DNA of 36,717 nt from the NCBI GenBank assembly GCA_027365105.1, contig DAHXNZ010000014.1, forward strand, positions 1-36,717, written 5' to 3'. A program made the position numbers and the translations under genes. Shown here in pieces: positions 8,989-32,627 of the stretch; positions within the stretch are counted from its first letter, which is position 1, and each line of letters begins with the position of its first letter. A model generated the notes under the pieces. The model was not told where the DNA came from, searched no databases, and saw nothing but the letters and a program-made list of their open reading frames with translations. The stretch comes from Thermoplasmata archaeon (GTDB lineage: Archaea > Thermoplasmatota > Thermoplasmata > Lutacidiplasmatales > UBA184).

Positions 8989-9732
8989 TTACCCCGACGG
9001 CGGGGCGGGCACGGTCGGCAGCTTGCGGACCGCCCGGATCCCCACCCAGAGAAGGATGTCCCCGAGGAGCGGGAAGAGCAGGAGAAGGACCGCCCCGACC
9101 TGGATCAAGGACTCGTGGTAGCGGCGCTCGAGCCGCCACAGCCCGATCGCGAGGTAAATCCACCCGATGACGCTGAGGATCGCCCCCACCACGATCAGGG
9201 CGGCCCCGACCAGCACCGGCCAGAGCGCCCCGGTCTGGACGCAGGGCATGGCGCCACCGGGTGGGCCGGGCGGGTGGCAGGTCAGCACCGAACCGAGAGT
9301 GAGAAGCACGACCGGAACCCCGACCAGGATGAGGAGGAGCCCGGGGTAGGCGAGGATCGAGAGACGGAGCGGGGAGTCCAGCTCGGGCGACGGTCCCGGC
9401 AGCCCCCGGAGCCCGGCCCGCGTCCAGGTCAGCTGGACGAGCGAGAGCAGGATGGCGAAGGCCAGGAGACCGATCGGTGCGATCCAGTTCGGCCCCGAGG
9501 AGAACCCGGCCCGGAGCTCGAGGGCCCGGGTAAAGCCGCTCGCGCTGATCGCTTCGGCCACGGTGAGGCTGATCACGCCTCCCACCCCGCCGATCACGGC
9601 CCCATTCGAGATCTTCCGGAGTCCGGCCCGGTCGGCCTCCGTGATGGCCCGGGGCGGGAAGGCCCCTCCCAGGGGTGGGGGCGGGGGTACCCGGACGGTC
9701 GGTATCGAGGGGTCCGGTGGAGGGAGCGACAT
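8989..9732 (-). CDS. Multi-pass membrane protein, DUF973-like
   Basis: A 247-residue protein. A proline-rich cytoplasmic N-terminus (PPPDPSIPTVRVPPPPP) is followed by about five hydrophobic segments: SNGAVIGGVGGVISLTVAEA, IAPIGLLAFAILLSLV, ILAYPGLLLILVGVPVVLL, VLVGAALIVVGAILSVIGWI and IQVGAVLLLLFPLLGDILLW. The C-terminal pattern (IGLWRLERRYHESLIQVGAV...LWVGIRAV) resembles the archaeal DUF973 family, whose function is not known. Two cysteines lie in an extracellular-looking loop (LTCHPPGPPGGAMPC). A TATA-like TTGAAATAG (9798-9806) on the minus strand lies about 70 bases upstream, which would give a leader of about 40 bases, unlike most genes here. Confidence 0.6.
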   Translation of the reverse strand: MSLPPPDPSIPTVRVPPPPPLGGAFPPRAITEADRAGLRKISNGAVIGGVGGVISLTVAEAISASGFTRALELRAGFSSGPNWIAPIGLLAFAILLSLVQLTWTRAGLRGLPGPSPELDSPLRLSILAYPGLLLILVGVPVVLLTLGSVLTCHPPGPPGGAMPCVQTGALWPVLVGAALIVVGAILSVIGWIYLAIGLWRLERRYHESLIQVGAVLLLLFPLLGDILLWVGIRAVRKLPTVPAPPSG

Positions 9733-9878
9733 GGTCCGACTCGGAGGGAGCGGGCCCGGCCCGGCCCCTCGTCTGGGCTTCCGGTGGGCGGTCCCGCTAT
9801 TTCAACCTGCGCTCTCAGCGGCTCCCGGGCGGACCCGGACCCCGCGGTCGGGAGGCGGACGTCGTCCGGTGTCCGATG

Positions 9879-9886
9879 AAAATATA
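9879..9886 (+). promoter_or_regulatory. TATA box of the first GltD-type gene
   Basis: AAAATATA in a GC-rich setting, centred about 38 bases before the ATG at 9921, so the leader would be about 10 bases. A GAGGT just before the ATG is a possible, very close Shine-Dalgarno element. Confidence 0.55.
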
Positions 9887-9920
9887 CTCTTTCGCCGGCT
9901 TCGGAGCCCGGGCGAGGTCC

Positions 9921-11357
9921 ATGGGAGAGTCCACCCGATACCATCGTACGCCGATCCCCGAGGTGGACCCCAAGGCGCGGGCGGCCGAGTTCCAGGAGGA
10001 ACTGCTCCCGTACGACCGCGAGCAGGCCGTCCTCGAAGCCCGACGCTGCCTCCAGTGTGCGATGCCGTTCTGCGTGCAGGCCTGCCCGATCACCCAGGAC
10101 TGCCGCGGGTACATCCGGCTCATCGGGGAGGAACGGTTCGACGACGCCGCCCGTCTCACCCTCGAGGCCAACCCCATGGCCACCGTGCTCTGCAAGACCT
10201 GCTACCACTACTGCGAGGACGGCTGCGTGATGGGCGATCGCGGCGTGCCCATCGCGATCCGGCACCTCAAGCGCGCCGCCCTGGAGCACGGCCGCTCCGA
10301 CCTCCTCTACGTCCCCGGAGCCCCCCGGAACCAGCGTGTCGCGGTCGTCGGCGGCGGGCCGGCCGGGATCATGTGCGCCTGGGAGCTCGCCCTGCGGGGC
10401 TACGGCGTCACGGTCTTCGAGGCCGAGCCGTTCCTCGGGGGGCAGGTCGACACGATCCCGCGCTACCACCTCGCCGACGGCGATCTCGACCGAGACCTGG
10501 CCCGGTTCAAGAACCTCGACATCACCTGGGTCCTCGGCAAGAAGGCCGGCGTCGACTTCACCCCCGAGAGCCTCCGCGCGGAGGGCTACCTCGCGGTCTT
10601 CGTCGCGATCGGCGCGTCGAACCCCCGGGCGCTCGGCATCCCCGGCGAGGAACTGCCCGGGGTCTACCATGCCCTGCCGTTCCTCCTCGCGGTGAACCAG
10701 GGCCCCTCGGGGCTCCTCGGCCGGTCGAACCGGACCGTCGTCGTGATCGGGGGCGGGGACGTCGCGCTCGACGCCGCCCGGTCGGCGTTGCGGCTCGCCC
10801 AGAAGGGGGCCGTGACCGTCGTCTACCGCAAGGGCCGGGCCGAGATGCCGGCGGGCAGCGAGGAGGTCGACGGCGGCGGGGCGGAGGGCGTGAACTTCCT
10901 CTACGACCGGGCGCCCGTCCGGATCCTGGGCACCCACCGGATCGAGGGGCTGGTCGTCCAGCGGACCGAACTCGGACCGCCGGACGCCCACGGCCGCCCC
11001 ACGACCCGGCCGATCCCGGACTCCGAGGAAACGATCCCCTGCGACACGGTGATCGTCGCGGTCGGGGAGACGGCCGACATCCAGGGCCTCCCGACCGAGC
11101 TCGACTTCAACCTGAGCCACCACCCCTGGCCCGAGGGCCGGCGCGAGGACTGGATGACCGATGTCGAGGGCGTGTTCGCCGCCGGGGGCCGTTCGGTCGT
11201 CTACGCCATGGCCGCCGGTACGAAGGCGGCCGAGGCGATCGACGCGTACATCGCCCGCACGACCGGGCGGGCCCCGACGCCCCGGCCGGATCCGTTCGGA
11301 GGCGCCGTCCCGCCCCGGCTGCCCGACGGGTACGGCGGGCCGGCCTGGCACTTCTGA
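9921..11357 (+). CDS. GltD-type FAD/NAD(P) oxidoreductase (glutamate synthase small-subunit family), copy 1
   Basis: A 478-residue flavoprotein of the GltD/NfnL family, which uses NAD(P)H, FAD and Fe-S clusters; in archaea stand-alone members can act as glutamate synthase. Visible parts are two cysteine clusters (Cys43, 46, 51, 55, 61; Cys91, 94, 98, 102), an FAD Rossmann motif (GGGPAG, 144-149) and an NAD(P) motif (GGGDVALDAA, 277-286) followed by YRKGRAEMP. The C-terminal second FAD motif reads GVFAAGGRS (418-425), where the family usually has GVFAxGD, so the aspartate is replaced by Gly423. The start is chosen at the ATG at 9921, just after the TATA box; upstream residues look non-coding. 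A paralogue lies at 28068-29501. No glutamate synthase large subunit is nearby, so amination of 2-oxoglutarate is inferred, not shown. It converges on msrA with a 22-base gap. Confidence 0.8.
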   Translation: MGESTRYHRTPIPEVDPKARAAEFQEELLPYDREQAVLEARRCLQCAMPFCVQACPITQDCRGYIRLIGEERFDDAARLTLEANPMATVLCKTCYHYCEDGCVMGDRGVPIAIRHLKRAALEHGRSDLLYVPGAPRNQRVAVVGGGPAGIMCAWELALRGYGVTVFEAEPFLGGQVDTIPRYHLADGDLDRDLARFKNLDITWVLGKKAGVDFTPESLRAEGYLAVFVAIGASNPRALGIPGEELPGVYHALPFLLAVNQGPSGLLGRSNRTVVVIGGGDVALDAARSALRLAQKGAVTVVYRKGRAEMPAGSEEVDGGGAEGVNFLYDRAPVRILGTHRIEGLVVQRTELGPPDAHGRPTTRPIPDSEETIPCDTVIVAVGETADIQGLPTELDFNLSHHPWPEGRREDWMTDVEGVFAAGGRSVVYAMAAGTKAAEAIDAYIARTTGRAPTPRPDPFGGAVPPRLPDGYGGPAWHF

Positions 11358-15122: not shown

Positions 15123-16670
15123 CTAGGCCCGGGAGTATTCGTCGTTTGCGTCCGGCGATCCGACCAGCGGCCGGCCCTCCGACCAGACCGCCCGGATCGC
15201 CGAGGCCCCGGTGACCAGGGCGTCCGCGAGGCGCGGGGCCCTCGTCCAGAGGAAATCGGCCCGGGCCCCCTCGACCAGCACGCCCCGCTCGGGCTCGCCG
15301 AGCGCGACCGCGCCGCCCCGGGTATAGATCTCGAGCGCCTCCTCGGGCCCGAGCGCCTCCGCCGGGATCGCCCCGGGACTCCCCGACCCGATTACGGCCC
15401 GGAGTCCGGCCCACGGATCGAGCTCGTCGTAGGGGGCATCGCTCGAGCCGGCGAGCCGGGCCCCCGAGCGACGGAGGGAGGCGAAGGCGTAGGCGGTGGG
15501 CGCCCGGGCGGCGCCCAACCGGGCCTCGATCCATCGGTCGGTGACCCGGAAGTGGGGCTGCACCACCAGGATCCGGCGGGAGCGCCCGAGCCGGTCGATC
15601 AGATCCGGCGGGGTCACGGAGGCGTGCTCGATCCGGAACCGCTCGGCACCGGGCCGGCCCTCCGGCCCCGAGCCCCAGCGCTCGGCCGCCTCGACGGCCC
15701 GGTCGCCGATCGCATGCAGGGCCACCCAACCCCCCGCGCGCTGGATCTCGGCGATCCGCTCGCGGGTGAGCTCGGGCGGCGCGGTCGAGAGGCCGGTCTC
15801 CGCCGGGGCATCGGCATACGGGGCGCGGAGCGCCGCGGTCCGGGGACCGAGCGCCCCGTCGAGGAACGCCTTGACCCCGACCGCCCGTCCGTTGCCGTCG
15901 GGCTCCTCCGGCAGGGTCGGGCCCGGCCAGGGCGGGGCTCCGTCGACCCACCGGCGGAACGTCCGGATCTGGGGCGAGCGGGGCTCACGGCGCACCGCCG
16001 CCCGGATCGCCGCCTCCTCCGGCGGCTCGACCGCCATGGCCCCGAGCAGCGTGAGGCCGAGGCCGGCGAGCTCGGCCAGCAGCGACCGCCACGCCCCGGC
16101 ATCGACCGGCGGGCCGGCCGCTCGCACCGGCTCGAGCAGCGGCACCGCCGCGTCGTACAGCGCGCCCGTCAATCCTCCGCTCCCCCGACCCAGACGTCCG
16201 CCCGGAGGGTCCGGGTGGGTCGCGTCGAGGCCCACCGAGCGGAGCGCCGCCCGGTTCGCCCAGGCGGCATGGCCGGACCGGTCGAGGATCAGCCACGGCC
16301 GCCGGTCATCCCGGGCGAGCGTCGGCGGGCCCTCGGAGTGGATCGAGCCGATCGCGACGACCGGCCGGCCCGGGAAGCGACGGTCGTAGGCGGCGAGACG
16401 TTCGGGCAGGGAGGGACCGTCCACCGGGGCGGCCAGGTCGAGGTAGAGACGGCGGGCGAGGAGGTCGCCCGGGTGGAGGTGCGCATCGACCAGCCCGGGC
16501 AGCAGGAGGCCGTCAAAGCGGTGGGTCTCGGTGCCCGAGGGGGATCGGGAGCGGACCCGGGGCTCCCGGCCGACGGCGGCGATCCGGTCGCCCTCGATCA
16601 GGAGCGCTTCGGCCCCGCCGGCGCCGGTCCAGATCCGCCCGCCGACCCACAGATGCGCTCCGGTTTCCAT
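15123..16670 (-). CDS. Metal-dependent amidohydrolase, YtcJ-like (amidohydrolase 3 type)
   Basis: A 515-residue TIM-barrel hydrolase. The N-terminal beta-sandwich (AHLWVGGRIWTG) leads to the metal motif VDAHLHPGD (His64, His66). Later come GVKAFLDGALGPRTAAL (the position of the bridging lysine), LHAIGDRAVEAA, FRIEHAS, and a late aspartate in GSSDAPYDELDPWAGL. This order matches the YtcJ group, whose members hydrolyse amides or imidic compounds; the substrate cannot be told. It is cytoplasmic, with no signal peptide. The minus strand carries a TATA-like GTTATG about 29 bases upstream of the ATG. The unrecognised gene at 14430-15110 follows after 12 bases, and the DpnI-like gene is divergent. 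Confidence 0.85.
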   Translation of the reverse strand: METGAHLWVGGRIWTGAGGAEALLIEGDRIAAVGREPRVRSRSPSGTETHRFDGLLLPGLVDAHLHPGDLLARRLYLDLAAPVDGPSLPERLAAYDRRFPGRPVVAIGSIHSEGPPTLARDDRRPWLILDRSGHAAWANRAALRSVGLDATHPDPPGGRLGRGSGGLTGALYDAAVPLLEPVRAAGPPVDAGAWRSLLAELAGLGLTLLGAMAVEPPEEAAIRAAVRREPRSPQIRTFRRWVDGAPPWPGPTLPEEPDGNGRAVGVKAFLDGALGPRTAALRAPYADAPAETGLSTAPPELTRERIAEIQRAGGWVALHAIGDRAVEAAERWGSGPEGRPGAERFRIEHASVTPPDLIDRLGRSRRILVVQPHFRVTDRWIEARLGAARAPTAYAFASLRRSGARLAGSSDAPYDELDPWAGLRAVIGSGSPGAIPAEALGPEEALEIYTRGGAVALGEPERGVLVEGARADFLWTRAPRLADALVTGASAIRAVWSEGRPLVGSPDANDEYSRA

Positions 16671-16759: not shown

Positions 16760-17536
16760 ATGTCCCTCGCCCTGGCGCTCCCTCCGGCCCCCGACGGCCT
16801 GGAGAGCCCCCGGGCGCTCGCCCGGGTCCGGACCACGGCCTGGGTCGAGACCAACCTCTACTGCCCCCAATGCGGCCGGCACCGGCTGCGGCCGACCCCG
16901 GCCGGGACCCCGTTCCGGGACTTCGTCTGCACCGGCTGCCAGGAACCGTTCGAACTCAAGGCTTCGAAGGACCCGCACCGGACCCGCGTGGCCGGCGGCA
17001 GCCTCCGGCAGTACCGGGAGGCGATCGAGCGGGGCGCCGCGCCGAACCTCCTCCTCCTCACCTACGACCCGGGTGAGTCGAGGGTCCGGGACCTGGTGGC
17101 GATCAACCGTTCGCTGATCTCGCCGCTCGCCGTCATCGGCCGGCCCGCCCCCCTCGCCCGAACCTCGCGGACTCCCTACTACCTGTGCGATCTCGACCTC
17201 TCCGGGGTCCCGCCGTCGGCCCAGGTCCCGTACCTCCGGGCCGCCCACGAGCGCCCGAAGCGGTTCGTCCTCGACTCCTGGAACCGGTTCCGCTTCCTCC
17301 GCGACGCGCCGCCCGCCGACGAGCCGGACTGGATCCGCGACCTCCTCGCCTTGATCGCCCGGATCCCCAGCCGGGAGTTCACGCTCGACGACCTCTACGA
17401 GCACACCGAGGAGCTCGCCCAGTGGCACCCCCACAACCATCACATTCCGGCCAAGATCCGCCAGAAGCTCCAGGTCCTCGTCCGGCGCAAGATCCTCCGA
17501 CGGGCCGCGCCCGGGGTCTTCGAGCCGATCTACTGA
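16760..17536 (+). CDS. DpnI/Dam-replacing-family restriction endonuclease, stand-alone
   Basis: A 258-residue protein laid out like DpnI (about 254 residues), which cleaves GATC only when the adenine is methylated. The N-terminal PD-(D/E)xK nuclease begins WVETNLYCPQCG. Cys35, 38, 57 and 60 form a zinc site around the catalytic Asp54 (RDFVC), followed by Glu65 and Lys67 in FELKASK. The C-terminal part (about 185-258: DEPDWIRDLLALIARIPSREFTLDDLYEH, KIRQKLQVLVRRKILRR) looks like the winged-helix domain that in DpnI reads the methylated site. No methyltransferase gene is adjacent, as expected for a methyl-directed enzyme. The exact recognition sequence is unknown. It is divergent from the amidohydrolase and converges on glnA; the 105 bases between them hold GC-rich inverted repeats only. 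Confidence 0.82.
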   Translation: MSLALALPPAPDGLESPRALARVRTTAWVETNLYCPQCGRHRLRPTPAGTPFRDFVCTGCQEPFELKASKDPHRTRVAGGSLRQYREAIERGAAPNLLLLTYDPGESRVRDLVAINRSLISPLAVIGRPAPLARTSRTPYYLCDLDLSGVPPSAQVPYLRAAHERPKRFVLDSWNRFRFLRDAPPADEPDWIRDLLALIARIPSREFTLDDLYEHTEELAQWHPHNHHIPAKIRQKLQVLVRRKILRRAAPGVFEPIY

Positions 17537-17641: not shown

Positions 17642-19123
17642 TCAGACGTCGAGGTACCGGTAGAACTCGTACGGGTGGGGCCGCAGGTTGAGCTGCAGCT
17701 GTTCCTCCCGCTTGATCTCCCGGTACGTCTCGAGGACCGAGTCGGAGAACGCCGGGGCGAGGAAGGCGTGGTCGGAGGCGAGGCAGTCGAGGGCCTCCCC
17801 GAGCGACCCGGGCAGCTCCCGCACCCCGAGCTCCTTGCGCCGGGCCGGTGAGAGCTTGTAGATGTCCTGGTCGACGGGGGGCGGAGGCTCGATCTGATGG
17901 CGGATCCCGTCGAGGCCGGCGAGCGCGAGCGCCGCCTCGGTGAGGTAGATGTTCGCCGCCGAGTCGGGGGTCCGGTACTCGAGCCGCTTCGCCGCGGCCC
18001 GGCCCCGGTGGTAGAACGGTACCCGGACGTTGGCCGACCGGTTCGCCTTGCTCCAGGCGATGAAGACCGGGGCCTCGTAGCCGGGGACCAGGCGGCGGTA
18101 CGAGTTGGTGGTCGGGTTGGTGATCGCGCAGAGCGCCCGGGCGTGGGCGAGCAGGCCCCCGATGTAGTAGCGGCAGGTCTGGCTCACTTCGGCGTAAGGA
18201 TCGTCGGCATCGAAGAAGACGTTGCGGCCCTTCGACCAGAGCGACTGGTTGGTGTGCATGCCGCTCCCGTTGTCCCCGAAGATCGGCTTCGGCATGAACG
18301 ACGCGATCTTGCCGTGCCGGTGCGCGACGTTTTTCACGACGTAGCGGATGTCCTGGACATGGTCGGCGGTCGGCAGGAGCTCGTCGTAGTGGATGTTGAT
18401 CTCCGCCTGACCGGCGGTCGCGACCTCGTGGTGGTGGGCGTCGAGGACGACGTGGAACCGGTCGGCGAGGAGGTTCATCATCTCGGTCCGCAGCGCGCTC
18501 ATCGAGTCGTAGGGCGGCGCCCGGTAGTACCCTTCCTTGAAGCGGGCCATGGAGGGGCTCGCCCCTTCGGTCCACGGCGCCTCCGAACTCTCGATCCGGT
18601 AGCCCGACCCGCCCCAGGCGTCCCGGACCGCGCCGGGGGACGGGAGCAGATGGACCGCGTCGAAGAGGAAGAACTCGATCTCCGGCCCCCAGTAGCTGCG
18701 GTCGTAGCCGGCCTCCGCGAGGATCTGGGCGGCCCGGCGGGCGATCCCCCGAGGGTCGTGGGGGTAGGCGTCGGTCGTCCCGCCGTAGAGGATGTCGCAG
18801 ATGAACCGGGCGGTCGGTCCCTGGCCCTCGTCCCACGGGATGGCGGCGAGCGTCGAGGGGTCGGGGCGCAGGAGCATGTCCGACTCGTAGATCTCCCGGA
18901 ACCCGCGGACCGACGAGCCGTCCAGTTTGGGGACTCCCGAGACGAACGAGTCGGCGTCGAGCGTCGCGAGGGGCACCTGGACCCGGTTGAACCCGCCGAG
19001 GAGGTCGGTGAAGAAGAGCTCGACCCAGCGGACCTTCTCGTCGCGCAACCGCTCGAGGATCGCTGCGGGAGTGGGGGCGGCGGTTTCGGCCAGCGGGTCG
19101 GCCCAACGACGCGCGTCGCTCAT
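17642..19123 (-). CDS. glnA: Glutamine synthetase, type I
   Basis: Makes glutamine from glutamate, ammonia and ATP. A 493-residue protein, a little longer than the usual 440-470. Visible signatures are the Glu pair in YWGPEIEFFLF, AEINIHYDELL, KPIFGDNGSGMHTNQSLW (ATP/Mg region), NPTTNSYRRLVPGYEAP and LEYRTPDSAANIYL. The C-terminus lacks the adenylylation tyrosine motif (NLYDLP), so control by adenylylation is not expected. It is divergently arranged with an Lrp/AsnC gene across about 116 bases, which makes Lrp control plausible. Only a weak TATA candidate (TGTAGGCC, about 19147-19154) is seen upstream. With two GltD-type enzymes in the window it suggests GS/glutamate synthase ammonia assimilation. 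Confidence 0.93.
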   Translation of the reverse strand: MSDARRWADPLAETAAPTPAAILERLRDEKVRWVELFFTDLLGGFNRVQVPLATLDADSFVSGVPKLDGSSVRGFREIYESDMLLRPDPSTLAAIPWDEGQGPTARFICDILYGGTTDAYPHDPRGIARRAAQILAEAGYDRSYWGPEIEFFLFDAVHLLPSPGAVRDAWGGSGYRIESSEAPWTEGASPSMARFKEGYYRAPPYDSMSALRTEMMNLLADRFHVVLDAHHHEVATAGQAEINIHYDELLPTADHVQDIRYVVKNVAHRHGKIASFMPKPIFGDNGSGMHTNQSLWSKGRNVFFDADDPYAEVSQTCRYYIGGLLAHARALCAITNPTTNSYRRLVPGYEAPVFIAWSKANRSANVRVPFYHRGRAAAKRLEYRTPDSAANIYLTEAALALAGLDGIRHQIEPPPPVDQDIYKLSPARRKELGVRELPGSLGEALDCLASDHAFLAPAFSDSVLETYREIKREEQLQLNLRPHPYEFYRYLDV

Positions 19124-28037: not shown

Positions 28038-28065
28038 TCTCCCCGCATTCGGGGAGATGAGGTGA
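28038..28065 (+). promoter_or_regulatory. Leader hairpin and strong ribosome-binding site of the second GltD-type gene
   Basis: TCTCCCCG-CATT-CGGGGAGA (28038-28057) forms an 8-base-pair hairpin at the predicted 5' end of the mRNA. GAGGTGA (28059-28065) follows directly and is a strong Shine-Dalgarno element ending two bases before the ATG at 28068. The stem stops one base short of the Shine-Dalgarno, so it could protect the 5' end or modulate ribosome access. Regulation is inferred. Confidence 0.55.
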
Positions 28066-28067
28066 CC

Positions 28068-29501
28068 ATGACCGACGCGACCTCTCGGTTCCACCGGATC
28101 GAGATTCCCGAAGAGCAGCCCCGCGAGCGGATCGCCGATTTCCGGGAGGTCCTCCACTCCTACACCCGGGAAGAGGCGATGGTCGAAGCCCAGCGCTGCC
28201 TCCAGTGCGCGCTGCCCTTCTGCGTCGAGGCCTGCCCGATCACCCAGGACTGCCGAGGGTACATCGGGCTCGTCGCCTCCGGGCGGTTCGACGAGGCGGC
28301 CCGCCTCACCCTCCGCGAGAACCCCTTGGCCACGACCCTCTGCAAGGTCTGCTACCACTACTGCGAGGACGCGTGCATCATGAAGGGCCGGGGCATCCCG
28401 ATCGCGATCCGCCACCTCAAGCGGGCGGCGCTCGAGTTCGGCAACTCCGATCTCGAGTACGTTCCCGCGGCGCCGCGCCACCAGCGCGTGGCGGTCGTCG
28501 GTGCCGGTCCGGCGGGCATCATGTGCGCGTGGGAGCTTTGCCTGCGCGGCTACTCGGTCACCGTCTACGAGAGCCAGCCGGCGGTCGGGGGCCAGGCCGG
28601 GGCGATCCCCCATTACCGGATGCCGAACCACGAACTGCTCATCGACCTGAAGCGGTTCAACCGGTTCGACCTCACCTTCGTCCAGGGCCGGCGCGTCGGG
28701 GTCGACTTCACCCCCGAGGAGTTGCTAGCGGAAGGGTACCGGGCCGTCTTCCTCGCCATCGGGGCCTCGGCGGCCAACTACCCCGGGATCCCGGGCGAGA
28801 AGCTCCCCGGGGTGCTCCCGGCCCTCGAATTCCTCTACGACGTGAACCAGGGCCGCCCGGTCAAGGTCGGACAGCAGATCGTCGTGATCGGAGGCGGCGA
28901 CGTCGCGGTCGACGCGGTCCGGACCTCGAGAAGGCTCGCTCCCCACGCCACGGTGACGATGGCCTACCGGCGGACCCGCGGGGAGTCCCCGGCGGGCGAG
29001 GAGGAGATCCGGGAGACCGAACCCGAAGGCATCGACTTCCGCTGGCTCCTCTCGCCGCTGCGCATCCATGGGACCGACCGGGTCGAGGCGGTCGAGTTCC
29101 AGCAGATGGAGCTCACCGAGCCGGACCGCTCCGGCCGGCGGGCGGTGCGCCCGGTGCCGGGCGCGACCGTGACGATCCCGTGCGATACCCTGATCGTCGC
29201 GATTGGGGAGAAGGCCGACCTGAACGGCATCGATCCGAAGCTCGGTCTCAAGATCGGGACGAAGGGCTGGCCCGAAGGCCCCCGTCCGGGCGGGATGACC
29301 GAGGTCGAAGGCATCTTCGCGGCCGGGGGCCGCTCGGTCGTGCATGCGATGGCGGCCGGAACCCGGGTCGCCGAGGCGATCGACGCCTTCCTCTGTGAGA
29401 AGGAGGGGCGGACTCCCGAGCCTCGGAGAGATCCGTTCGGTACGGGAGAGATCCCCCCGAAGGTCCCCGAGGGCTACTCCGGGCCGGTCTGGACCCCGTA
29501 G
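28068..29501 (+). CDS. GltD-type FAD/NAD(P) oxidoreductase, copy 2
   Basis: A 477-residue paralogue of the protein at 9921-11357, with the same domain order: cysteine clusters (QRCLQCALPFCVEACP and LCKVCYHYCEDAC), FAD motif GAGPAG, NAD(P) motif GGGDVAVDAVRTS with YRRTRGESP, and C-terminal GIFAAGGRS. It again has Gly where GltD-family proteins usually have the FAD-binding Asp. The N-terminal third is nearly the same in the two copies and the rest is moderately similar. The start is placed at the ATG at 28068 because a GAGGTGA ribosome-binding site fits it; the GTG at 28062 lies inside that site. It could be a glutamate synthase or an electron-bifurcation-type transhydrogenase subunit; no partner subunit is adjacent. 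Confidence 0.8.
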   Translation: MTDATSRFHRIEIPEEQPRERIADFREVLHSYTREEAMVEAQRCLQCALPFCVEACPITQDCRGYIGLVASGRFDEAARLTLRENPLATTLCKVCYHYCEDACIMKGRGIPIAIRHLKRAALEFGNSDLEYVPAAPRHQRVAVVGAGPAGIMCAWELCLRGYSVTVYESQPAVGGQAGAIPHYRMPNHELLIDLKRFNRFDLTFVQGRRVGVDFTPEELLAEGYRAVFLAIGASAANYPGIPGEKLPGVLPALEFLYDVNQGRPVKVGQQIVVIGGGDVAVDAVRTSRRLAPHATVTMAYRRTRGESPAGEEEIRETEPEGIDFRWLLSPLRIHGTDRVEAVEFQQMELTEPDRSGRRAVRPVPGATVTIPCDTLIVAIGEKADLNGIDPKLGLKIGTKGWPEGPRPGGMTEVEGIFAAGGRSVVHAMAAGTRVAEAIDAFLCEKEGRTPEPRRDPFGTGEIPPKVPEGYSGPVWTP

Positions 29502-29809: not shown

Positions 29810-31198
29810 TCAGCCGATCCGCGCCCGATGGATCTTTCGTAGATTGTGCGCGAGGCACCCGAGGAACCACTCGCCCCGGACCTTTCGCCGCCCTCGGAGG
29901 AGGAACTGGCGGAATCGCTGTCCCTCTTTCATCTGTCCAAACACCGGCTCCACGATCGCCTTCCGCCTCCGATAGTGGGTCCGCCCTCTCCGACCCCGAA
30001 TCCCCCTCCGCCTCGCCGCGGTGAACGTCTCATCGTTCGGCGGACGGCCCCTCCGACACCCCTCGCGCTCCTCCTTCTTCCCGCGCCCCGGTGGACAAAA
30101 CACCTCGACCCCTCGTCCCTCCACCGCTCGGATCCCGTCCTCGCTGAAGTACCCAGCATCCGCGAGCAGCTTCTCGGGCCGCCGGCCCAGCTGCGCCTCG
30201 ATCCGATTGAGCATCGGCACGAGGTGGGGTTGGTCGGGGGCCGCCGTCATCACCTCCGCTCCCACGATAATCTGGTGCGCCTCGTCCACCGCCGCCTGAC
30301 AGTTGTACCCCTGGAGGAACGCCCCCTTGCTCCCTCCGTCCGGCATGATCCGCGACTCCGGGTCGGTGAAGTTCCGCTGCGCCTTCGCGTCCACCGAAGG
30401 CGGCGGAGTTCCTCCCCCATCCTTCGGCGACTCCTCTCGATCGGTGTCGGCACGATCGGCGGAGGCCGCGATCTCCGCCGCCGCTTTGGCCCGGGCCTCC
30501 TCCTCCAGCGCGAGCTTCGCCGCGCGGATCTTCGCCAGCCGGTCCCGGTGGAACTTCAGCTCCTCCGGGAGATCCTTCGGCCGCTTCCCGTGACCGTACT
30601 CGGCATCCTCCTCGAGGTCGATCTTCCGAGCCGCGTCGAAGAGCTTTCGGACCTTCGCCTTGAGCTCCTTTTCCTTGACGAGCATCCGCCCGTAGCTCAT
30701 CGCTTTGTGCTTCGAGGCGTGCGCCCGAACCTTCGTCCCGTCGAGGGCTACTCGACCCAGCTTGACCAGCCCAAGCCGCTCGGCAATCTTCAGCCCCTGG
30801 ATGAATAGACCCTCGAGAACGTCAAGGTTCTTCTCCCGGAACCTCGCGATAGTGTTGTGGTCCGGGTGCCGGTTCGCCGCGAGGAACCGAAAGGCGACAT
30901 CCTCGTAGGTGGCACGCTCGATCTTCCGGGAGGAGCGGACCCCGATGGCATACCCGTAGACGATGAGCTTGGTGAGCATCTTCGGATGGAGGGCGGGGTG
31001 GCCGCCCTCGGCGTTGCGGTAGCGCTCGATCAGCGGCGAGAGGTCGAGGGACTCCTCGACAACCTCGGAGATGAAGCGAGCCAGATGCTCCTCGGGGAGC
31101 CAGTCGTTGAGGTTCGGAGGCAACAGGAGGCTCTGGTTCGTGTCGTACGGCGAGAAGACCGGCGACGCACGCTCTTCGGTGGGAGTGGAGTTTCGCAC
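29810..31198 (-). CDS. IS1182-family transposase
   Basis: A 462-residue DDE transposase. The N-terminal DUF772-type domain (NQSLLLPPNLNDWLPEEHLARFI, HPKMLTKLIVYGYAIGVRSSRKIE) leads to the catalytic core with Asp in RVALDGTKVRA, Asp in LLADAGYFSEDG and Glu in AIVEPVFGQMKEG. A charged coiled-coil-like insertion (KEKELKAKVRKLFDAARKIDLEED...EEEARAKAAAEIAAS) lies between the first and second Asp. A GTG at 31198 is preferred. The frame stays open to an ATG at 31339, but that part overlaps the 3' end of the next transposase and looks non-coding. It appears intact, with no frameshift seen. Terminal repeats were not resolved. Confidence 0.85.
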   Translation of the reverse strand: MRNSTPTEERASPVFSPYDTNQSLLLPPNLNDWLPEEHLARFISEVVEESLDLSPLIERYRNAEGGHPALHPKMLTKLIVYGYAIGVRSSRKIERATYEDVAFRFLAANRHPDHNTIARFREKNLDVLEGLFIQGLKIAERLGLVKLGRVALDGTKVRAHASKHKAMSYGRMLVKEKELKAKVRKLFDAARKIDLEEDAEYGHGKRPKDLPEELKFHRDRLAKIRAAKLALEEEARAKAAAEIAASADRADTDREESPKDGGGTPPPSVDAKAQRNFTDPESRIMPDGGSKGAFLQGYNCQAAVDEAHQIIVGAEVMTAAPDQPHLVPMLNRIEAQLGRRPEKLLADAGYFSEDGIRAVEGRGVEVFCPPGRGKKEEREGCRRGRPPNDETFTAARRRGIRGRRGRTHYRRRKAIVEPVFGQMKEGQRFRQFLLRGRRKVRGEWFLGCLAHNLRKIHRARIG

Positions 31199-31238
31199 AA
31201 TCCTGGCCCCTCTCCGAACCCCGGTGAGGGGTTGACCG

Positions 31239-32627
31239 CTACCGTGTGAGCGACAGTGCCTCCACCAGGGGCCTGACGATTTCGCGAAGTCGCGGTTCTC
31301 CCCCGCACTTCGAGAAAACCTCCTCCCGCCACAGTTCACCCCTCAGCGCCGACATCGCGTCTGCGAACGATGGACGCACCTTCTTCGGATACCACGGGAG
31401 CCTCGGGAGCCGCGGCTTCGGCCCTTGGGTCTCGAGGTACCACACCCACACTGCGCTGTAGAGCCAGAACGCGAGCGAGGCCGCCCGCTCCGGCCCCTTG
31501 CCCCGCCACGTCTGCGGCTCCTCCCCGCCGAGGCTCTGCTTCGAACTCCTCAGCGTATCTTCGATCGGCCACCTCCCGTGGTAGTGGCTCACCACCGCCC
31601 CGGGGGTCATCGCGAGGTCGGTCGTGAACAGGAAGTCGTCCTTCTCGCGCCCCGTCGGGTCGCGGCTGACCACCACCCGGATGGGACGGACTCCGCAGAC
31701 ATGATACCACAGAACTTCTCGGGAGAGCAGGAGCCGCTCCTCCAGCCGTCCCCGTCGGTCCACGACTGCCTTCTCCCATCCATTCCGGGCCCGGGCCGCC
31801 CATGCGGTCAGGGAGGGGAGGCGGTCTCCCTTCTTCCGGGGCCGTCCCGGATGTCCGGGTCGGTGAGGGGGAGGGAAGTCGTGGAGCGCGGCGTCCCGAC
31901 GGATCCGCGAGGTGACCTCGGTGCGGGGAAGGTCCCGGCCCGCCAAGGGGGCGTAGGCCCCGTCGGCGATGAGGTGGAACTCCCGGCCCGGGAAGCGTTC
32001 GGCGAGCCGCCGGACCGCTTGAACTCCGAGGTCGGGGAGCTTCGTTCCCCCCTTGCGGTGGAGGTGGACGGCGAGAGGGAGGGCGAGGGGCTCACCGCCC
32101 CAGGGAGCCTTCACGCGGAGCGCGAGGACCAGGAGGTTGAGGCCGCGGTCGTAGACGACGGAGTTCGCACTGGAGCGTACGGCATCGCGGAAGGTCCCGG
32201 CGCCCTCGACCTTCCGCCCTCGGCGGTGGAAGAGGGTGTCGTCGAGGAGGAGGTCGACCCGTCCCCGCGGGACGAAGAGACCGATCAGCAGATCGGCGGT
32301 GAGATCCCAGAGCCCATCAAGGGACCATGTCGCGGTGCGCACGAGACGGTGATAGGCGTCATGAGGCCGTCGGTGCACGAGGCCCCCACCGCGCATCATG
32401 CCGGTGACGGTGCGGCGGACGGGACAAAGGACCCAGGCGGTGAGGAGTTCGCCGAAGATGGAGAAGGTCGGGGCGGTGAAGAGCGGGGCAAAGAGCGCGA
32501 CGAAGTCGCGCCAGGTGTCGCTGTGCGACCGTGAGGCCGACTGGGCCGACGAGTTGCTGAGGGTCGCGGCAAGGGGGCCTCCGAACGCGGAAGGCTGCAT
32601 GGGGCGTCTCTCGGGCCCTTCTATCAA
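31239..32627 (-). CDS. DDE_5/IS701-like transposase
   Basis: A 462-residue transposase of the IS4/IS701-like DDE group. Asp in LLLDDTLFHRRGRKVEGAG, Asp in LIADGAYAP, and Glu in GRWPIEDTLRSSKQSLGGEEPQTW form the catalytic set. The N-terminal part (ELLTAWVLCPVRRTVTGMMR) is the helical region typical of the family. The start may be 32627 (MIEGPERRP) or the internal ATG at 32600 (MQPSAFGG). It is complete, on the same strand as the IS1182-like gene 40 bases downstream, so two unrelated insertion sequences lie side by side or one has landed at the edge of the other. CCCTCTC-like sequences flank it (near 31207 and 32636) but do not make a convincing repeat pair. Confidence 0.8.
   Translation of the reverse strand: MIEGPERRPMQPSAFGGPLAATLSNSSAQSASRSHSDTWRDFVALFAPLFTAPTFSIFGELLTAWVLCPVRRTVTGMMRGGGLVHRRPHDAYHRLVRTATWSLDGLWDLTADLLIGLFVPRGRVDLLLDDTLFHRRGRKVEGAGTFRDAVRSSANSVVYDRGLNLLVLALRVKAPWGGEPLALPLAVHLHRKGGTKLPDLGVQAVRRLAERFPGREFHLIADGAYAPLAGRDLPRTEVTSRIRRDAALHDFPPPHRPGHPGRPRKKGDRLPSLTAWAARARNGWEKAVVDRRGRLEERLLLSREVLWYHVCGVRPIRVVVSRDPTGREKDDFLFTTDLAMTPGAVVSHYHGRWPIEDTLRSSKQSLGGEEPQTWRGKGPERAASLAFWLYSAVWVWYLETQGPKPRLPRLPWYPKKVRPSFADAMSALRGELWREEVFSKCGGEPRLREIVRPLVEALSLTR

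Follow-up and report, generated by a model that had tools for sequence, protein, structure and literature searches.

A stand-alone DpnI-family nuclease with a diverged catalytic-domain reading surface in a small Thermoplasmata clade

The locus and its DpnI-family gene

The DNA analysed here is a stretch of 36,717 nucleotides from a Thermoplasmata archaeon (the window; its genome is referred to as G000). An open reading frame at positions 16760-17536 of the plus strand runs from ATG to TGA over 258 codons, encodes a protein of 258 amino acids and shares its ATG start with the ortholog in G013, another species of the genus. It is present as one copy in the window genome (1.83-Mb draft, 201 contigs, 97.5% completeness). 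The gene, its parts and its two flanking genes are as follows:

15123..16670, minus strand: amidohydrolase (PF07969), flanking; conserved neighbour of glnA in the genus (profile match; synteny)
16760..17536, plus strand: DpnI-family stand-alone methyl-directed nuclease, 258 aa (PF06044, PF17726, PADLOC mREase_II, 4esj/4kyw)
16802..16855, plus strand: residues 15-32, an N-terminal segment with the minor-groove helix at its end, carrying R18/A19 in place of DpnI S17/Q18 (homolog alignment; PMC4117772)
16862..16939, plus strand: zinc site, Cys35, Cys38, Cys57 and Cys60 (sequence; homolog alignment)
16919..16960, plus strand: PD-(D/E)XK residues Asp54, Glu65 and Lys67, equivalent to DpnI D53, E64 and K66 (sequence; homologs)
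17132..17188, plus strand: base- and methyl-reading loop IGRPAPLARTSRTPYYLC, residues 126-143, with Tyr at W138 and Leu at G140 (homolog alignment)
17321..17533, plus strand: C-terminal winged-helix reader domain, with DpnI K229/R231/Q235 as K232/R234/Q238 (PF17726 at residues 189-253)
17642..19123, minus strand: glutamine synthetase glnA, flanking (PF00120, 4e-121; synteny)

Four independent tests (Pfam, PADLOC, phmmer and fold search) identify the ORF as a genuine full-length DpnI-family nuclease. Both Pfam domain profiles bear out the DpnI-like protein proposed by a reading of the sequence alone: the catalytic domain (PF06044) matched at E=3e-31 (108.8 bits; curated cut-off 26.7), and the winged helix (DpnI_C, PF17726) matched residues 189-253 at E=1e-16 (61.1 bits; curated cut-off 23). 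The PADLOC model of methyl-directed restriction enzymes (mREase_II) matched at 7e-45, and phmmer aligned residues 18-252 with the DpnI structures 4esj/4kyw (E=1e-31). The AlphaFold model had a mean pLDDT of 92, and when it was used for a fold search the same two entries were the only PDB structures at E<0.001 (E 1e-22). Superposition on 4esj (TM 0.75, rmsd 3.2, E 6e-22) covered the catalytic and winged-helix domains, which settled the structure check suggested by the sequence-only reading in favour of DpnI.

Between the window and G013 gene copies, dN/dS (Nei-Gojobori method) was 0.285 for the nuclease, which lies between the values of glnA, Lrp, DeoC and the aminotransferase (0.10-0.15) and those of the amidohydrolase and the MFS gene (0.33-0.44). 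Selection on the nuclease is purifying and unremarkable in strength. A chance match or a pseudogene is ruled out by the profile and fold matches, the open frame in two species and this dN/dS value.

A profile search of the neighbouring genes (amidohydrolase, glnA, Lrp, DeoC, aminotransferase and MFS) found no methyltransferase, in agreement with the earlier statement that none is adjacent. G013 shares this gene order (amidohydrolase, nuclease, glnA, Lrp/AsnC, DeoC), and its nuclease is 80% identical. When 28 other glnA loci of the genus were examined, the amidohydrolase stood beside glnA in 24/28 and the nuclease in 0/28; in G056, the nearest relative by glnA identity (81%), the amidohydrolase and glnA lie ∼90 bp apart with nothing between them. 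Since the two genes are neighbours across the genus without the nuclease, its presence is most simply accounted for by an insertion between them in the common ancestor of G000 and G013. The housekeeping location that had been considered unusual for a restriction gene is explained by insertion between genus-wide neighbours. The dam-replacing gene of Neisseria (Drg) is likewise a stand-alone chromosomal insertion and is GmATC-specific, but was inserted at the dam locus (PMC4269198) rather than between an amidohydrolase and glnA.

Elsewhere in the window, ORFs at 9675-11357 and 28062-29501 resemble by eye a glutamate synthase small subunit/NADPH oxidoreductase, in the same window as glnA and the Lrp-type regulator. 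Two adjacent minus-strand ORFs at 29810-32627 look, again by eye, like transposases of different types.

Catalytic, reading and winged-helix residues

The zinc and active-site residues named beforehand (Cys35/38/57/60, Asp54, Glu65 and Lys67) are all at those positions in the sequence. Among 13 homologs Cys35, Cys38 and Cys57 are invariant and Cys60 is nearly so. The catalytic roles of DpnI D53, E64 and K66 have been described (PMC4117772); in 109/109 homologs positions 53 and 66 are Asp and Lys, and position 64 is Glu or Gln. The catalytic D54/E65/K67 site is intact in the window nuclease.

In DpnI, target reading by the catalytic domain depends on a few residues (PMC4117772). S17 and Q18 insert into the minor groove, Q18 being the one that selects the A:T pairs at the centre; both guanines are held by R126 and R135; and L129, R135 and W138 form the methyl pocket, in which G140 provides the space for W138. 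N48 contacts a flanking base with no contribution to specificity, and D78 touches the DNA through its backbone (PMC4117772). An alignment of 109 distinct homologs, including the G013 ortholog, was used to compare these positions. Relative to DpnI the window protein carries S17R, Q18A, W138Y and G140L, and the G013 ortholog is changed at the same four positions and has additionally lost R135. Elsewhere these residues hardly vary: position 18 is Gln in 105/105 other homologs with a residue there, Ala being confined to the window protein and G013; R135 is Arg in 107/109, G140 is Gly in 104/109, and W138 is Trp in 103/109, with Tyr in five and His in one. The window protein also carries N48G and D78G, but both are found in other homologs, and a reading of these two changes as special was dropped.

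The loop that contributes most of these residues has the same length in the window protein as in DpnI and is the lowest-confidence block of the AlphaFold model (residues 126-143, pLDDT 70). The family motif R-x-PL-x-x-x-ARRAGWxGC is replaced by IGRPAPLARTSRTPYYLC in the window protein and by GRPRPLARNSPEPYYLC in G013, so that ARRAGWxGC becomes TSRTPYYLC and NSPEPYYLC, respectively. In a gap-free alignment of the loop, DpnI R126 and R135 correspond to R128 and R137 of the window protein, the latter being Pro in G013; the MAFFT alignment is shifted by one residue and places Thr and Glu at R135. R126 may be kept, and the status of R135 and L129 in the window protein hinges on the loop alignment; with either alignment, S17, Q18 and G140 are lost and W138 is changed. 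Three bacterial homologs (L139, L143 and L159, two of them from Sulfurimonas) have a partly similar loop, R-P-x-Y-I-M-C, and retain Q18.

In the window protein and its ortholog, several catalytic-domain residues that read Gm6ATC and are otherwise nearly invariant have been replaced. Of the claim that the whole DpnI layout is kept, the active site and the winged helix stand, and positions S17, Q18, W138 and G140 do not. A layout that predicts DpnI specificity is not supported, given S17R, Q18A, W138Y and G140L and the loss of R135 in G013, and the accompanying caution that another methylated target was equally possible proved well founded in view of these changes.

In the winged helix the key residues are present. 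Mutation of K229, R231 or Q235 impairs DpnI or HHPV4I (PMC10101028), and all three, together with Q232 (implicated by homology), are kept in the window nuclease; the family-invariant Q233 is a Lys (K236). In known proteins the winged helix supplies m6A targeting to other nuclease domains (PMC10101028; PMC11037411), so the protein could remain functional even if its catalytic domain reads more weakly. Short ORFs (∼80-145 aa) with a DpnI_C-like winged helix only were seen at L127 1474-1722 (G056:C50), L126 (G042:C23) and G107:C1 484069-489844, once as three neighbouring pieces; these are possible stand-alone m6A readers or remnants.

Across the 42 alignment columns that were at least 90% conserved, the window protein departed at 12 and G013 at 11, compared with 6 for the next homolog and a median of 0. 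Departures occurred at 4/6 base-reading positions vs 9/36 elsewhere (Fisher p=0.06), an enrichment that is only suggestive. In a maximum-likelihood tree the two proteins fell inside the DpnI clade of their own archaeal family (support 100/99). The stem leading to the pair, at 1.48 changes per site, exceeds every other branch of the tree, and the tips that follow are only 0.15 each. Rapid change followed by constraint is the pattern that would be expected from a change of function, and transfer from an unsampled lineage, from which the long stem can also come, would look similar.

Distribution of homologs, host methylation and GATC

DpnI homologs were found in 17/106 genomes of the order, 41/400 sampled genomes of the class and 28/390 of the phylum. 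In a one-genome-per-species collection at least 471 matched stretches encode a relative, and the best 80 of these come from many bacterial and several archaeal phyla; archaeal homologs include those of Hadesarchaea, Jordarchaeum, Bathyarchaeota and Woesearchaeota. The notion that a DpnI is unusual in an archaeon is ruled out by the 41/400 class genomes and the other archaeal phyla, and the surprise expressed in the sequence-only reading was misplaced, as ∼10% of sampled class genomes carry homologs. Distribution is patchy, with most species of the window genus lacking the nuclease. Searches of phage and viral-contig collections for a viral source returned no full-length relative at the sensitivity used, and winged-helix matches only.

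Several of the homolog loci have features of their own. At L036 (G129:C2; 1789-2559 and 2769-3545) a canonical DpnI homolog close to an HNH-like ORF directly adjoins a DPPY-type N6_N4 methyltransferase gene, from which it is divergent; unless the two have different sites, an m6A methyltransferase next to a DpnI would seem to conflict with it. At L030/L031 (G141:C85, contig positions 992-25414) a strong MethyltransfD12 (Dam/DpnM-type) gene is found 2-3 kb away from a complete DpnI gene, and the contig also carries two broken DpnI copies; it looks like a DpnI/DpnII-type exchange region. At L029 (G114:C48; 507-1253 and 2732-3265) intact and broken DpnI copies stand side by side, and GATC is strongly under-represented over 52 kb of this contig (Karlin ratio 0.46), unlike in the window genus.

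In the 97.5%-complete window genome there was no match to PF02086 (Dam/DpnM), PF02384 (type I) or PF07669 (Eco57I-type). Five convincing PF01555 methyltransferases were present: one belongs to the PvuII m4C type (345 bits to 1boo), three more carry TSPPY motifs, and one carries DPPY and resembles virus and plasmid methyltransferases. The TSPPY motif is typical of m4C enzymes. From this gene content, Gm6ATC methylation is likely absent from the host. Across 150 genomes mutual exclusion of DpnI and PF02086 was not seen (both occur in G068, G103, G116 and G141), a comparison limited by the many specificities that PF02086 spans.

The DPPY gene (L111 1393-2394, G000:C122) is surrounded by short virus-like ORFs, a possible provirus, and its product shares 49% identity with a protein from a Halorubrum tailed virus. 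A TSPPY-type orphan (L107 1393-2346, G000:C124) appears to be conserved in the genus, almost every genome of which has a match. CTAG is avoided to a varying degree across the genus (Karlin 0.25-0.75), and persistent orphan m4C methylation is plausible.

The earlier impression that GATC is common was confirmed by 380 copies in the window (observed/expected 1.09). Over 436 kb of the window genome the Karlin ratio was 0.98, well above the avoidance cut-off (≤0.78), so that GATC is not avoided. If the nuclease cuts Gm6ATC, a host that does not avoid GATC cannot carry that modification. A survey reported GATC to be under-represented in 38/42 genomes with DpnI-like enzymes (PMC4687349). Within the genus, genomes with a canonical DpnI had ratios of 0.88 (G071) and 0.95 (G002), and DpnI-free genomes ranged from 0.90 to 0.97; because the two groups differ so little, GATC avoidance does not discriminate between specificities here.

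Predicted specificity and role

Several characterised systems frame the interpretation. R.DpnI of Streptococcus pneumoniae (type IIM; PDB 4esj, 4kyw) has 254 residues to the 258 here and shares the four-Cys zinc site, the D/E/K active site, the winged-helix K229/R231/Q235 and the lack of a methyltransferase partner, but is only ∼28% identical and differs at S17R, Q18A, N48G, D78G, W138Y, G140L and Q233K. FcyTI, which has been shown to be Gm6ATC-dependent, and Psp4BI have the same PD-(D/E)XK-wH architecture, but are ∼58% identical to DpnI (PMC11037411), to which the window nuclease is far more distant. The canonical homologs of its own archaeal family (G081, G071, G002 and others) fall in the same 100/99 clade at 35-43% identity and, unlike the window nuclease, retain the S/Q and ARRAGW motifs; in G002 and G071, both of which were checked, the genes are at other genomic places. 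The archaeal virus endonuclease HHPV4I/HhiV4I (PUA-wH-HNH) uses the same type of winged helix as its Gm6ATC reader, but has an HNH nuclease domain and cuts outside the site, and offers a model for targeting by the winged helix without reading by the nuclease domain (PMC10101028).

Weighing these comparisons, we consider it probable that the gene encodes a DpnI-family restriction nuclease (type IIM/IV-like) that stands alone, depends on DNA modification and has an altered catalytic-domain specificity, and that these few Thermoplasmata keep it on the chromosome for defence. The m6A dependence, the changed specificity and the role in defence are predicted. Like that of DpnI, the winged helix would most likely bind DNA that carries methylated adenine within ApT, and the zinc-bearing PD-(D/E)XK domain would then cut with D54/E65/K67. 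Because residues that read the sequence and the methyl group have been replaced, the strict Gm6ATC readout of DpnI has probably been lost; site choice would rely more on the winged helix, or a somewhat different methylated sequence would be read. In our judgement, the exact DpnI specificity is more likely altered than retained. The case for alteration is limited by the tolerance of W138Y, the occurrence of N48G and D78G elsewhere, the possible retention of R126 and R135, and the presence of Q233K in the winged helix itself.

An alternative is an ordinary DpnI with strict Gm6ATC specificity in both domains, in which the substitutions are neutral or compensated. The fold, the catalytic site and the key winged-helix residues are the same; DpnI W138Y retains partial activity and Tyr is natural there in Neisseria enzymes, whose homologs have Tyr or His at this position as the window protein has Tyr (PMC4117772); the loop can be aligned so that R126 and R135 match arginines; and GATC is abundant in a genome in which a Dam-family methyltransferase was not found. 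Nevertheless, the otherwise invariant Q18 is lost, as are S17 and G140, R135 is also gone in the ortholog, and the stem branch is extreme, and we regard an ordinary DpnI as unlikely. A DNA role outside restriction, for example in repair or as a structure-selective nuclease, would fit the stable syntenic position in two species, the purifying selection and the burst of divergence, but is quite improbable given the conserved m6A-reader residues of the winged helix, the patchy distribution and the absence of the gene from most species of the genus. Lastly, that this is the nuclease half of a conventional restriction-modification pair is very improbable: several PF01555 methyltransferases, including the DPPY type in a virus-like stretch, could supply a partner elsewhere in the genome, yet none adjoins the nuclease, those that can be recognised include one PvuII-like enzyme (m4C) and a genus-wide type present with or without it, and the DpnI-family members characterised in PMC4117772 and PMC11037411 are methyl-dependent.

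Returning to a restriction nuclease of altered specificity, what is new here is a diverged catalytic-domain reading surface in a confirmed stand-alone DpnI-family nuclease, the family itself being known in archaea. We tentatively suggest that the G000 and G013 enzymes could represent a natural respecification of DpnI, in which the m6A-reading winged helix was kept and the catalytic domain reads or ignores a different sequence, giving either a new target or cleavage directed by the winged helix. The Gm6ATC readout of DpnI is almost invariant across the homologs examined, and a clade in which reading-surface residues are replaced, with the catalytic site and the winged helix retained, provides a natural test of how recognition is divided between the two domains. 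If the enzyme is an ordinary DpnI, Q18 and the ARRAGW loop would be shown to be dispensable; if its specificity has changed, it could supply 6mA mapping with a methyl-dependent nuclease for another target.
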